A stretch of DNA of 48,688 nucleotides from a virus, in the IMG/VR virus record IMGVR_UViG_3300027911_000020, positions 1-48,688 of that record. One strand, given 5' to 3'. Below, piece by piece: positions 2,607-43,285 of the stretch; position 1 is the stretch's first letter, and every line of letters begins with the position of its first letter. The translations under genes and the position numbers were made by a program. The notes under the pieces were generated by a model, which saw only the letters and a program-made list of their open reading frames with translations, did no database searches and had not been told where the DNA came from.

Positions 2607-3948
2607 CGCGCGTCGCCTCTTCGAACCGCACAATCTCGCCGAACCACGCCAGCGGAATCCGGCCAATCGGTCCGCCGCGTTGCTTGAGGAGCTCCAGGTC
2701 CGCCAGCCCGTTCAACTCCGGCTTGTCCTTCATGTACGTCTCCATCCTTACGATGGCCGCCACTACGTCTGCGTCTTGCTCCACGCTGCCGGACTCACGT
2801 AGATCCGACAGCACCGGCCGCCATCCGTCCGGATTCGACGCACTGCCCCGCGTCTCCACTGCTCGACTCAACTGCGACAACACCAGCATTGGAACCTTGC
2901 AGTCCTTCGCAATCAGCTTCATGTTCCGACTCAGCCGCGACATCGCCGCCACCCGTTCCGAGTCCTTGCACTGCAACATGAGCTGTATGTAATCCACAAT
3001 CACCAACCCAACCGGTCCGCGCGCCTGCTGCTTGCGTATCTTGGCGTGGATCTCCTGCTCCGAAGTGTTTGCCTTATCGTCGATGTAGATCCGGTCATCG
3101 ACCGCGATCTCGGAAGTAGCCTTCCACGCGCGCCCCTCCTCCTCCTTCGACATATACCCGCCGCCGAAGCGCTGGGTGTTGATCCGTGCCCGCGAACAGA
3201 TCAGCCTGTCCAATAACTCCTCTTTGGCCATCTCCAGCGAGAAGATTGCCGTGATATGTGCCGCGCGCTCCTCATTCACCGGCACTGACACCCGTTCCGC
3301 GATATTCAACGCGAGTGCCGTCTTCCCTTGCGCCGGACGCGCCGCCAGGATATACAACTTCCCCGGCTGCAATCCGCCGGTCATCACATCGAGCGACGGG
3401 TAGCCGGTCGATATTCCCTTGACCTTATTCCTCCGGTCGATATACGCACCGATCCCGCCCGCCTCCTCGATCATCTGCGCCGGAGTCACCAGAGAGGTCT
3501 GAGTACACCCCTCCGCCAACTGAAGCAACGTGGCGTTCGCCCCGGACAGGATCTCCGCCGGTTGCTCCTCTCCAGACATCGCCCGTCCCGATAGGTGCTG
3601 GCACGCTAACACGATGCTTCGCAGTGTGGACTTGTCCTTGACGATCCGGATGTACTCATCGATATTCGGGATCTGAGGTAGACCGTCATCCAGCGACACC
3701 AGGTAGCTCAAGCCGTCGCACGACTCCAACTCACCGAACTTCATCAGTTCATTAGCCACCGTGATCCGGTCTATCTTGTCGCCGCGCTCGGATAGTCCGG
3801 CCATGCGCTTGAAGATGCGCCGATGTTTCTCCAGGCTGAAATCGTTCGACTCCAGCGCGCCGGTAGCCAGTGCCCAGAAGCTGTCATCCAGTAGGATTGA
3901 CCCGAGCACAAACCGTTCCGCGTCTACGTTGCTCGGTAATCCACTCAT
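2593..3948 (-). CDS. dnaB: replicative DNA helicase, DnaB family
   Basis: A 451-residue hexameric helicase, close to full bacterial DnaB length. Residues 8-110 form the N-terminal DnaB domain (AERFVLGSILLDD). Residues 170-445 form the RecA-type motor, with Walker A ARPAQGKT at 203-210, Walker B LVIVDY at 315-320 and the DnaB-type DLRESGSVEQDAD segment. It would unwind phage DNA at the fork, loaded probably with the upstream DUF1376 protein. Its ATG overlaps the stop of that gene. No separate primase is seen in the window, so host primase is probably recruited. Confidence 0.96.
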   Translation of the reverse strand: MSGLPSNVDAERFVLGSILLDDSFWALATGALESNDFSLEKHRRIFKRMAGLSERGDKIDRITVANELMKFGELESCDGLSYLVSLDDGLPQIPNIDEYIRIVKDKSTLRSIVLACQHLSGRAMSGEEQPAEILSGANATLLQLAEGCTQTSLVTPAQMIEEAGGIGAYIDRRNKVKGISTGYPSLDVMTGGLQPGKLYILAARPAQGKTALALNIAERVSVPVNEERAAHITAIFSLEMAKEELLDRLICSRARINTQRFGGGYMSKEEEGRAWKATSEIAVDDRIYIDDKANTSEQEIHAKIRKQQARGPVGLVIVDYIQLMLQCKDSERVAAMSRLSRNMKLIAKDCKVPMLVLSQLSRAVETRGSASNPDGWRPVLSDLRESGSVEQDADVVAAIVRMETYMKDKPELNGLADLELLKQRGGPIGRIPLAWFGEIVRFEEATRGDVD

Positions 3949-41103: not shown

Positions 41104-41522
41104 TCGCACCCTCCCGGCCCCGGTATCACCACACCCATCTCCGCCGCGAGCCGCCGCGCCTGCTCAATGAACTCCGTGAACTCCGCCGTGTCGAGGTCCG
41201 TCGTACTGCGGACCGTGGGCAGTGTCACCCAGCTCGCCCGCGTCTCGATCTCCTTGCCGTGTACCTGCAAGTAGCGCCACTTCAGCGCTTCGTGCATCTC
41301 TTCGTCTTCGTAACCGCAGTGCTCAGCGAGTATCGGGATCACCGTTGACCAGTAGTAGGCGTTCTGACTCAGCGACCGCGCCCTACGGTGCTTGCTCAAC
41401 CGGAGGTCAATGTCACTTCCACCTAGCCGTGCGATGAGAGCAGCGAAGTCTTCGCGGTGATCTAAACAGATCTTCCCGTTCTCGATTCGCCCGCGAAATA
41501 TTGGAGTAGGGTGGCGCGGCAT
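41100..41522 (-). CDS. NinB/Orf-like recombination protein
   Basis: A 140-residue protein with the NinB signature RSLSQNAYYWSTVIPILAEHCGYEDEEMHEALKWRYL, preceded by a basic stretch (LRLSKHRRARS), and an N-terminal GRIENGKICLDHREDFAALI. NinB (lambda Orf) binds single-stranded DNA and SSB and can replace RecFOR mediators. I chose ATG 41522 over a TTG three codons earlier. SSB is encoded about 3.5 kb upstream in the same direction. Confidence 0.85.
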   Translation of the reverse strand: MPRHPTPIFRGRIENGKICLDHREDFAALIARLGGSDIDLRLSKHRRARSLSQNAYYWSTVIPILAEHCGYEDEEMHEALKWRYLQVHGKEIETRASWVTLPTVRSTTDLDTAEFTEFIEQARRLAAEMGVVIPGPGGCE

Positions 41523-41676
41523 ATCCGACAATCACTTCCCCGGCGATTTGGTGTGCGTTCTGAACCCCGAAGTCCACCAAGAAGACGTATCCGCGCTCCT
41601 CAAGGAATCGGCAGGCATCAACCACATCCGGCGACGCCTCCAGTCCAATCGACTTGCACGTTGAATCGAAGCTCAT
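41413..41676 (-). CDS. hypothetical protein overlapping NinB-like gene
   Basis: An 87-residue frame whose first half (VVDACRFLEERGYVFLVDFGVQNAHQIAGEVIVGYA) looks like a genuine protein, while its last 30 residues are read out of frame over the NinB-like gene (110-base overlap) and are Arg-rich. Its ATG is 14 bases beyond the U-tract of the structured RNA region and lacks a good ribosome site. It may be real only in its first part or not at all. Confidence 0.35.
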   Translation of the reverse strand: MSFDSTCKSIGLEASPDVVDACRFLEERGYVFLVDFGVQNAHQIAGEVIVGYAAPPYSNISRANREREDLFRSPRRLRCSHRTARWK

Positions 41677-41693
41677 CCCGAATGCACCAAATG

Positions 41694-41737
41694 AAAAAGG
41701 GCAGGGAGTCGGTTAATACCTCACCGGCTACCTGCCC
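41694..41737 (-). terminator. intrinsic terminator ending the structured RNA region
   Basis: On the minus strand GGGCAGG (41737-41731) pairs with CCTGCCC (41705-41699), with an inner GCCGGT/ACCGAC helix. It is followed at once by TTTTT (41698-41694). It could end the structured RNA or act as an attenuator before the NinB-like operon. Confidence 0.7.
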
Positions 41738-41796
41738 TACCTGTTTGTTTGTTCAGCGGGGCTGGAATCGGTCGATACTTCAGCCTATCCAGCCCC
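41699..41796 (-). repeat. two tandem homologous hairpins
   Basis: The hairpins 41796-41758 and 41737-41699 share a consensus. From GTAT onward they read GTATCGACCGATTCC and GTATTAACCGACTCC (12 of 15 identical), both start GGGCnGG and end CnGCCC. The outer stems differ by a paired change (CTGG/CCAG against CAGG/CCTG), which keeps pairing. This suggests duplicated RNA elements or paired protein sites. Confidence 0.6.
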
Positions 41797-42182
41797 TTTC
41801 GTTGAATGTCCGGAGGATTTCGTATTGAAACCCTACCTCAAAGTCACCCCGGCTTTAATCGGACGGCCTATTTATACCCGTCCCGAAGGTTGCCAGATAC
41901 ACCTCCTGATTGGTCGCATTTGTGGGGTTGCTTAGAATCAGGTAAAGCCAGTTGTCCCCTCAGTGCCGGTCTATCCCGGCTGTCATGGCAAGTCCCGGCC
42001 GCCCTTACGCCTTTGCGCATATTGCGCGTTGCCGTGTTCAGTTACGCCACGGCCCAACGTTGCGGTTGCGAGTTTAAATCGTCGTAGCTACCGCCAATCC
42101 CCGACGCCCCGGCAGGGGAGATGCGCCCACACCTCAACCCTGCCGTCTTGCGTGGAGCCCGCCAGACTCCACGCAAAAGTCG

Positions 42183-42353
42183 TTACCCTTCGCGAATCAC
42201 CGAACTCAAGTCCGGCAGATGAAACCAATTCGCCAGGTCCTCACCGCCGTCGATCAGCTTGATGAGCCGATCCTCGATCTGATCCGCCCGCTCCACGAAG
42301 TGCGGATGGACCGTTCCGCCCTCACCCGATATCGCTCCCGTCGATCTCGCCAT
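42183..42353 (-). CDS. small phage protein, 56 aa
   Basis: The ATG directly follows the stop of the upstream gene (TAAATG). The protein MARSTGAISGEGGTVHPHFVERADQIEDRL, then IKLIDGGEDLANWFHLPDLSSVIREG, has an amphipathic helix (FVERADQIEDRLIKLI) and an acidic helix at the end. It looks like a genuine small conserved protein; the function is unknown. It is the last gene before the structured RNA region. Confidence 0.6.
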   Translation of the reverse strand: MARSTGAISGEGGTVHPHFVERADQIEDRLIKLIDGGEDLANWFHLPDLSSVIREG

Positions 42354-42671
42354 TTACGACACCTTCCGGGACAACAGTCGGTTGTCGGACTGACACTCTC
42401 GCGCGATTCGCTCTCGATTCTTCTGAGCGCTTTCGTTGTATCCGCCAACTCCCATCAATTGCAGGAACGGAGATGAACCGACGTGCCCGACATCGTTCCA
42501 GAAGTTATCGAGCACCTTGCGACTCACCTTCCGCGCCGCCCGGTCCCGTTCGTCCGAAGTGAGCGCAGTCGGTATATCTGCCGTCTCGCGCGCAATTAGC
42601 AGCGCCGGATACGTGTTCCCCGACGGGGAAGTGGATGGGGGGATTAACCGCTCTGGGAATTGGAAGCTCAT
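42354..42671 (-). CDS. hypothetical phage protein, 105 aa
   Basis: Starts MSFQFPERLIPPSTSPSGNTYPALL and continues with a charged helical section (LTSDERDRAARKVSRKVLDNFWNDVGHVG) and FLQLMGVGGYNESAQKNRERIARE. It lies eight bases after the sigma-like gene and directly before the small 56-residue gene. I do not recognise a family; nuclease or regulator roles are not supported. Confidence 0.5.
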   Translation of the reverse strand: MSFQFPERLIPPSTSPSGNTYPALLIARETADIPTALTSDERDRAARKVSRKVLDNFWNDVGHVGSSPFLQLMGVGGYNESAQKNRERIARECQSDNRLLSRKVS

Positions 42672-42679
42672 ATACTGGC

Positions 42680-43285
42680 CTACGCCACGTCCGTTCGGCC
42701 CGAAAGGACCGCCCGCAGAGTTTCTTTCCCCCTCACATTAGTAACCGTATGGGGTTTGCTGTTTTCTAGTGCGGAGTGAATATTTCTTTTTGCGTCCTGG
42801 ATGATCTGGGATACGCGCTGAAAGCTCACGCCCATCTCCGATGCGATATCCGCCAAGGTCTTCTGTCCCCAAAACAGGAGCGTGATCGCCTGATACTGAC
42901 GCGCCGGCAGAGCCTTCATGGCTTCCCAGAGATCCGGGTGAGTGTTCAGCGGCTGGAGATTCTGCTTTCCATGGACAGTCGCATCCCACTGATCTCCGTC
43001 CGATACCTCATCCGCGCTGTCGGCGCCGAATCCGGCCCGCACTTCCACCCTGCCACGTTCTTGACGCTCGCTCTTACGTACCGCGTCGATCATGGCATCC
43101 CGCGCGATCTTGACCGCCAGTGCAGCCGTATCCGGCTTCCGCGTGGACAGCGCCAGGCAACCCTCCGCGATCAGTTCCTCACGCTCGATCCACTCGCATA
43201 CGCCCCTGCGTTGCAACGTCCCGATGGCCCGCTTGCAGATCGCCAGATAGTCCGAACATAGCTCCGCCCCAACCGTCGCGTTCAT
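42680..43285 (-). CDS. sigma-70-like transcription factor
   Basis: A 201-residue protein with a region-2-like first half (YLAICKRAIGTLQ, EREELIAEGCLALSTRKPDTAALAVKIARDAMIDAVRKSER) and a clear region 4 in the second half (MKALPARQYQAITLLFWGQKTLADIASEMGVSFQRVSQIIQDAKRNIHSAL), with helix-turn-helix ADIASEMGVSFQRVSQII. The two regions are joined by an acidic linker. It is a plausible phage sigma factor directing RNA polymerase to the shared promoter element found at three places. It is the first gene after the P2 promoter and operator array. Confidence 0.75.
   Translation of the reverse strand: MNATVGAELCSDYLAICKRAIGTLQRRGVCEWIEREELIAEGCLALSTRKPDTAALAVKIARDAMIDAVRKSERQERGRVEVRAGFGADSADEVSDGDQWDATVHGKQNLQPLNTHPDLWEAMKALPARQYQAITLLFWGQKTLADIASEMGVSFQRVSQIIQDAKRNIHSALENSKPHTVTNVRGKETLRAVLSGRTDVA

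Follow-up and report, generated by a model that had tools for sequence, protein, structure and literature searches.

A recurrent 22-nt RNA hairpin at the borders of tRNAs and genes, found within a conserved non-coding island of a phage operon

In the nut sites of phage lambda, boxB is a short hairpin with a purine-rich pentaloop, carried in untranslated phage RNA next to boxA. The put RNA of HK022, known from lambdoid phages, is composed of two hairpins in about 70 nt of untranslated early RNA and requires no phage protein (PMC9378689), and GOLLD and ROOL are large phage and prophage RNAs located near tRNA islands (PMC12286853). Here we describe a non-coding RNA island in the leftward operon of a viral stretch of 48,688 nt (IMG/VR record IMGVR_UViG_3300027911_000020, analysed as a whole and hereafter called the window), and a 22-nt hairpin inside it, H2. 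The island resembles GOLLD and ROOL in being an untranslated, structured phage RNA of unknown function, and in tRNA-rich surroundings; unlike them, it and its relatives match no Rfam family, it is a mosaic of short modules rather than one conserved large fold, and the part that is shared is the 22-nt hairpin. H2 is, like put, a phage RNA element of untranslated early RNA, but the two folds are unlike; the covariance model of H2, termed R1, had no match in HK022, and scans of part of HK022 for GACA sites and for a repeat shared between both strands uncovered no similar element, so that identity with put was rejected. As compared with boxB, H2 has a GARAGA hexaloop following a UGACA linker instead of a pentaloop.

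The 506-nt gap lies exactly between ORF 42183-42353(-) and ORF 41413-41676(-), and none of the small ORFs inside it is gene-like. Relatives were identified through the protein encoded upstream (42354-42671), which led to three contigs, L137, L139 and L138, the first two behaving as one sequence in this region; all of them have a non-coding region of variable length at the same place. Substitutions between the island and L139 are distributed over the three frames as 11/19/16, versus 19/15/42, with a third-position excess, in the flanking coding sequence, and the majority of alignment gaps in the island are not multiples of three. A coding gene in the gap was rejected on these grounds, as the comparison with L139 revealed neither a conserved frame nor a codon-position bias, and the lack of third-position excess together with the mostly non-triplet gaps reflects selection on RNA rather than on protein. 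From unit A onward (42112-41796), identity to L139 is 85%, as compared with 78% in the neighbouring coding sequence. The gap thus holds a real, conserved non-coding RNA island (Table 1). The original prediction had seen no plausible gene here, in agreement with these comparisons, and the conserved protein frame which it named as an argument against a structured RNA did not emerge.

Table 1. Features of the non-coding island, in window coordinates
Feature	Coordinates	Strand	Remarks
Non-coding RNA island	41687..42182	(-)	Separates two small genes in the leftward operon; no conserved reading frame
15-bp hairpin	42146..42178	(-)	Directly 3' of the stop codon of the upstream gene; absent from L139 and L138; z -4.68
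Second simple hairpin	42110..42145	(-)	Absent from L139 and L138; z -3.10
Unit A	41986..42109	(-)	Conserved in three phage contigs; 3' strand of its terminal helix abuts the H2 linker
Hairpin H2	41964..41985	(-)	Linker UGACA 41985-41981; stem 41980-41976 with 41969-41965; loop GAUAGA 41975-41970
Unit B	41901..41963	(-)	Together with H2, identical between window and L139 save one base over about 85 nt
Hairpin GGGACGGGUAUAAAUAGGCCGUCC	41861..41883	(-)	Conserved in L139
Hairpin GGGUUUCAAUACGAAAUCC	41815..41833	(-)	Conserved in L139 with G-U/G-C changes
Hairpin module GGGGCUGG...CCAGCCCC	41758..41796	(-)	50-nt surroundings 100% identical in L138, absent from L139; z -3.33
Intrinsic-terminator-like hairpin, then UUUUU	41692..41738	(-)	3' end of the island; z -3.36

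With Rfam 15 covariance models at the gathering score, the sole match in the window was a tRNA-Lys at 22-94; the island had none, and raising E up to 10 added two chance miRNA matches, far below threshold. The same search gave zero matches in the relatives. The 506 nt fold with -209.5 kcal/mol versus a shuffled mean of -183.05 (z -4.39), and none of 100 shuffles was equally good, so that the predicted excess of stability over shuffled sequence does exist; it comes, however, mainly from four simple hairpins rather than from the conserved cores, which are ordinary in folding energy (42104-41960, z -0.39; 41962-41840, z -1.55). The hairpin with a U5 tract that had been noticed at the end of the gap is indeed terminator-like (41738-41692), and a simple terminator scan did not list it, which presumably reflects the internal loops of the hairpin and its 9-nt loop.

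The units of the island are shared unequally. While unit A is common to the window, L139 and L138, H2 and unit B are common to the window and L139, the 50-nt hairpin module is found in the window and L138 only, and a further stretch of about 250 nt is common to L138 and L139 and missing from the window. The island of L138 opens at its 5' end with a 117-nt tRNA-like fold (3490-3606), in which a T-arm accompanies a 7-bp acceptor helix. Two simple hairpins occupy this place in the window; no fold combining an acceptor stem with a T-arm and a TTCRA loop was detected in the window island. Such unequal sharing makes the island a mosaic of RNA units, a string of modules gained, lost and swapped among relatives and ending in an intrinsic terminator. 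A single large GOLLD-like RNA, the possibility originally raised, was rejected, since modules are swapped among the window, L139 and L138 and no Rfam family is matched; what survives of that proposal is a structured non-coding region conserved in related phages, rather than one large molecule. Inside unit A, 6 of the 33 predicted pairs are changed on both sides and some are broken among the three sequences, which is suggestive of covariation; the unit A pattern was found in only three further contigs and that of unit B in two, too few for a proper covariation test. A stretch in unit A, GGCGGTAGC at 42095-42087(-), resembles the start of the ops element, but an ops/RfaH site was rejected because L139 carries TCCGGTAGC there, within a conserved helix, leaving chance or structure to account for the likeness. 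Upstream of the island, the gene at 42680-43285(-) has a sigma-70 region 4 domain (Pfam PF04545) and possibly codes for a phage sigma-like regulator.

The informative part of the island is H2, which the original prediction had not singled out. It consists of a UGACA linker, a 4-5 bp stem ending in G-C, and a GARAGA-type hexaloop, and the window copy, with its GAUAGA loop variant, has all the features of the family, namely the GACA linker, the 4-5 bp covarying stem and the GARAGA-type loop. At 41962-41988(-), it scores 38.5 bits (E 2.5e-8) against R1, although the window is itself among the 26 sequences of this model; H2 is kept in L139. In a distant BLAST search of the region against phage records, the sole match covered about 26 nt at 41988-41962, in 12 records from several families, with no annotated gene under any of the matches. 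The core TGACAGCCGGGANAGACCGGCA occurs exactly in at least 120 IMG/VR stretches. In GTDB genomes, the form with R in place of N occurs in at least 119 stretches, and the chance expectation for it in 257 Gb is about 0.06, assuming equal base frequencies. By similarity, H2 was found in 37 phage records, including Ayaqvirus, Kyungwonvirus, Pokkenvirus, mEp390, Dibbivirus and cyanophages, and clustering the flanking sequences of the viral, phage and window copies gave 87 groups. Carriers are unrelated phages and mobile elements of proteobacteria, cyanobacteria, Bacteroidetes, Clostridia, Chloroflexi and Planctomycetes. H2 is not a housekeeping element: among 99 Serratia-family genomes, 4 had a copy at E up to 1e-4. 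No Rfam match covered H2 in the window and the 38 loci scanned. A text search for the core, covering a library of PMC papers, returned none; further literature searches found no related description, and the text of the Weinberg 2010 motif set contained no phage motif of this kind that we could find. H2 is apparently undescribed so far.

Since loci were fetched by the exact motif, identical stems in them are no proof of structure, and unbiased evidence has to come from the further copies detected by R1, even if the 26 sequences of the model include some of these. Of the 55 R1 matches that deviate from the pattern, 54 share their locus with an exact copy. Every one of these 54 is on the strand of its exact copy, between 50 nt and 2.8 kb away and in most cases no farther than about 600 nt. 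Their stems vary (GCCCG/CGGGC, CCCCG/CGGGG, UGCGG/CCGCA, GCAG/CUGC, ACCGG/CCGGU), and despite these changes the loop is kept as GARAGA or close to it, and the linker differs little or not at all from GACA. In an alignment of copies (A3), 99% of stem cells pair and 21 cells are doubly changed versus 1.5 in shuffles, both figures being upper bounds because A3 was fitted to the model and relatives were counted more than once. Covariation and strand agreement establish H2 as a motif at the RNA level.

By its position, H2 is a boundary marker. In 16 loci, H2 is followed at 3-7 nt by the start of a tRNA recognized by ARAGORN, of various isotypes. Where a tRNA and H2 are no more than 1 kb apart, the two share the strand in 129 pairs and are on opposite strands in one. 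A fold search extended this to 48 of 317 copies (41 loci), in which a fold made of a T-arm and a 7-bp acceptor helix closing on it starts 3-7 nt downstream, as compared with 3-9 copies at each of seven shifted control positions; these folds, 59-229 nt long, are tRNAs or tRNA-like. A start codon led by a Shine-Dalgarno sequence and opening an ORF of at least 60 codons is found within 80 nt downstream of H2 in 32 of 166 copies; the opposite strand gives one such case and shifted positions give 2-10. In a prophage-type contig (L022), the gap of about 390 nt that follows the major head gene ends with H2. In the window and in L139, unit A closes onto H2, which is followed by unit B and not by a recognized tRNA or gene start; in Medea1 and mEp390, as in the window, H2 is inside a long non-coding stretch with no recognized unit start close behind. 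An upstream closing helix, H1, can be seen by eye in many loci, with a weak enrichment above the cut-off (69% versus 52% in shuffles), and intrinsic terminators just downstream of H2 are also weakly enriched (12 of 210 versus 6-7).

The arrangement recalls phage tRNA arrays and tRNA-like RNAs, in that H2 abuts tRNA 5' ends and is followed by folds with a 7-bp acceptor helix, a T-arm and TTCRA loops, but in many of the units after H2 the anticodon arm is missing or the length reaches 100-229 nt. The non-canonical folds include L028 (229 nt), L164 (210 nt), L121 (185 nt), L174 (140 nt) and L158 (132 nt), in all of which a large insert replaces the D and anticodon arms, as well as L041 (60 nt) and L157 (59 nt), which have no anticodon arm. 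All seven have a near-complete to complete 7-bp acceptor helix, a T-arm and a TTCRA loop, and some are followed by NCCA. In a phage-plasmid with a pacase A gene (L334; NZ_CP027309.1 14246-19279), an H2-like stretch, flanked by tRNA-Ile and a Tad2 anti-defence gene, lies close to a tRNA annotated as ‘tRNA-OTHER’.

H2 is also associated with HEARO RNA (RF02033; the omega RNA of IscB/IsrB). In L155 and L163, the only loci with an RF02033 match among those scanned, it is found a few tens of nt downstream of that match; the HEARO model stops before H2, and the window, like most scanned loci, has no HEARO match. Three Thiotrichales-related genomes (loci L266-L333) contain 28, 51 and 116 copies of H2, mostly in HEARO-type elements, and in the sample of element copies examined H2 is just inside a right-end-like palindrome, the element being inserted just before ATGA start codons. 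These elements supply the Shine-Dalgarno sequence to the adjoining ATGA, and some solo copies retain H2 and are devoid of HEARO.

The constant linker and loop, the variable stem and the position at unit ends lead us to read H2 as a 3'-boundary or processing hairpin at the border of untranslated RNA units, an interpretation to which we assign roughly even chances, its mechanism being inferred. Phages, prophages and some IS200/IS605-like HEARO elements would use H2 to mark the 3' border of such a unit, in the order unit-closing helix, H2, and then the next tRNA, tRNA-like RNA or gene start. Where a tRNA follows, RNase P, cutting at the 5' end of that tRNA, would leave 3-7 nt beyond H2 as the end of the upstream RNA, an end that H2 may then cap or protect; where none follows, another nuclease, or a host factor bound to the linker and loop, might separate the RNA from the downstream mRNA. 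The stem of 4-5 bp is short for RNase III; this counts against the reading, as do the copies of Medea1, mEp390 and the window that have no recognized unit start close behind, and the weak enrichment of H1 and of downstream terminators. The principal rival, which we consider unlikely, is that H2 serves as an antitermination or anti-polarity element of nascent RNA: Rho threatens untranslated stretches, and H2, binding RNA polymerase or Nus factors in the manner of HK022 put RNA, would allow transcription to continue across tRNA arrays, non-coding RNAs and HEARO insertions. The presence of H2 in untranslated parts of operons, often as several same-strand copies with a common spacing of about 200-260 nt, and in early leaders of the temperate phages mEp390, BUCT708 and P7641 is consistent with such a role, as is a host range over many phyla, which needs a universal partner; but a distance to tRNA 5' ends as tightly kept as 3-7 nt is not something that antitermination calls for, H2 usually closes an untranslated stretch instead of opening it, and it has neither a sequence match to put nor an R1 match in HK022.

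Somewhat less probable still is that phage RNAs carry H2 as a decoy or binding site, aimed at a protein of host or phage such as a tRNA-directed defence nuclease, with counter-defence as its role and an arms race behind the swapping of modules. A near-invariant loop and linker on a variable stem do resemble protein recognition, and both the turnover of modules between close relatives and the tRNAs and tRNA-like RNAs in the neighbourhood would fit, yet there is no known partner gene, the boundary position is left unexplained, and HEARO elements in bacterial operons require no counter-defence. We give the least credence to H2 being a DNA hairpin, the end of an IS200/IS605-like element recognized by Y1 transposase, of which phage copies would be relics. 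The multiple copies in the HEARO-type elements of the Thiotrichales-related genomes, near a right-end-like hairpin and ATGA start codons, speak for it; but these elements have a separate right-end palindrome after H2, most scanned loci lack HEARO, and neither the fixed spacing to tRNA 5' ends nor the strand agreement (129 to 1 with tRNAs, 32 to 1 with gene starts) would be expected of a transposon end.

Taken further, the boundary reading would imply one RNA grammar, common to phages and mobile elements across bacterial phyla, in which untranslated units are separated by a universal UGACA-stem-GARAGA hairpin that sets each 3' end and is recognized by a host factor which most bacteria possess; we put this forward tentatively, with the chances rather against it. 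If true, the units of this grammar would be tRNAs, anticodon-less or giant tRNA-like RNAs, omega RNAs, and orphan RNAs such as unit A. A 22-nt motif preserved almost letter for letter across phyla implies a common partner or a common step of RNA metabolism that phage annotation has overlooked, and H2 offers a handle for non-coding RNAs in phage dark matter, non-canonical tRNA-like RNAs among them, if both of its flanks are read.

Two other RNA elements were observed in early phage regions. A second conserved early-leader RNA, GGCACATG...AGCGGTCCG...CAGCGGGTAGCCGGAATGTGCAAG, followed by an H2 variant, is present in mEp390 from E. coli (L128 2660-2740) and in BUCT708 from Stenotrophomonas (L131 2520-2600). 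A long hairpin, ACAACATG(A)AAGCGCAYTYC...GGAGTGCGCTTCCAGTTGT, is repeated in the early regions of three temperate phages (L128 3022-3105, L130 2580-2655 and L131 2668-2748).
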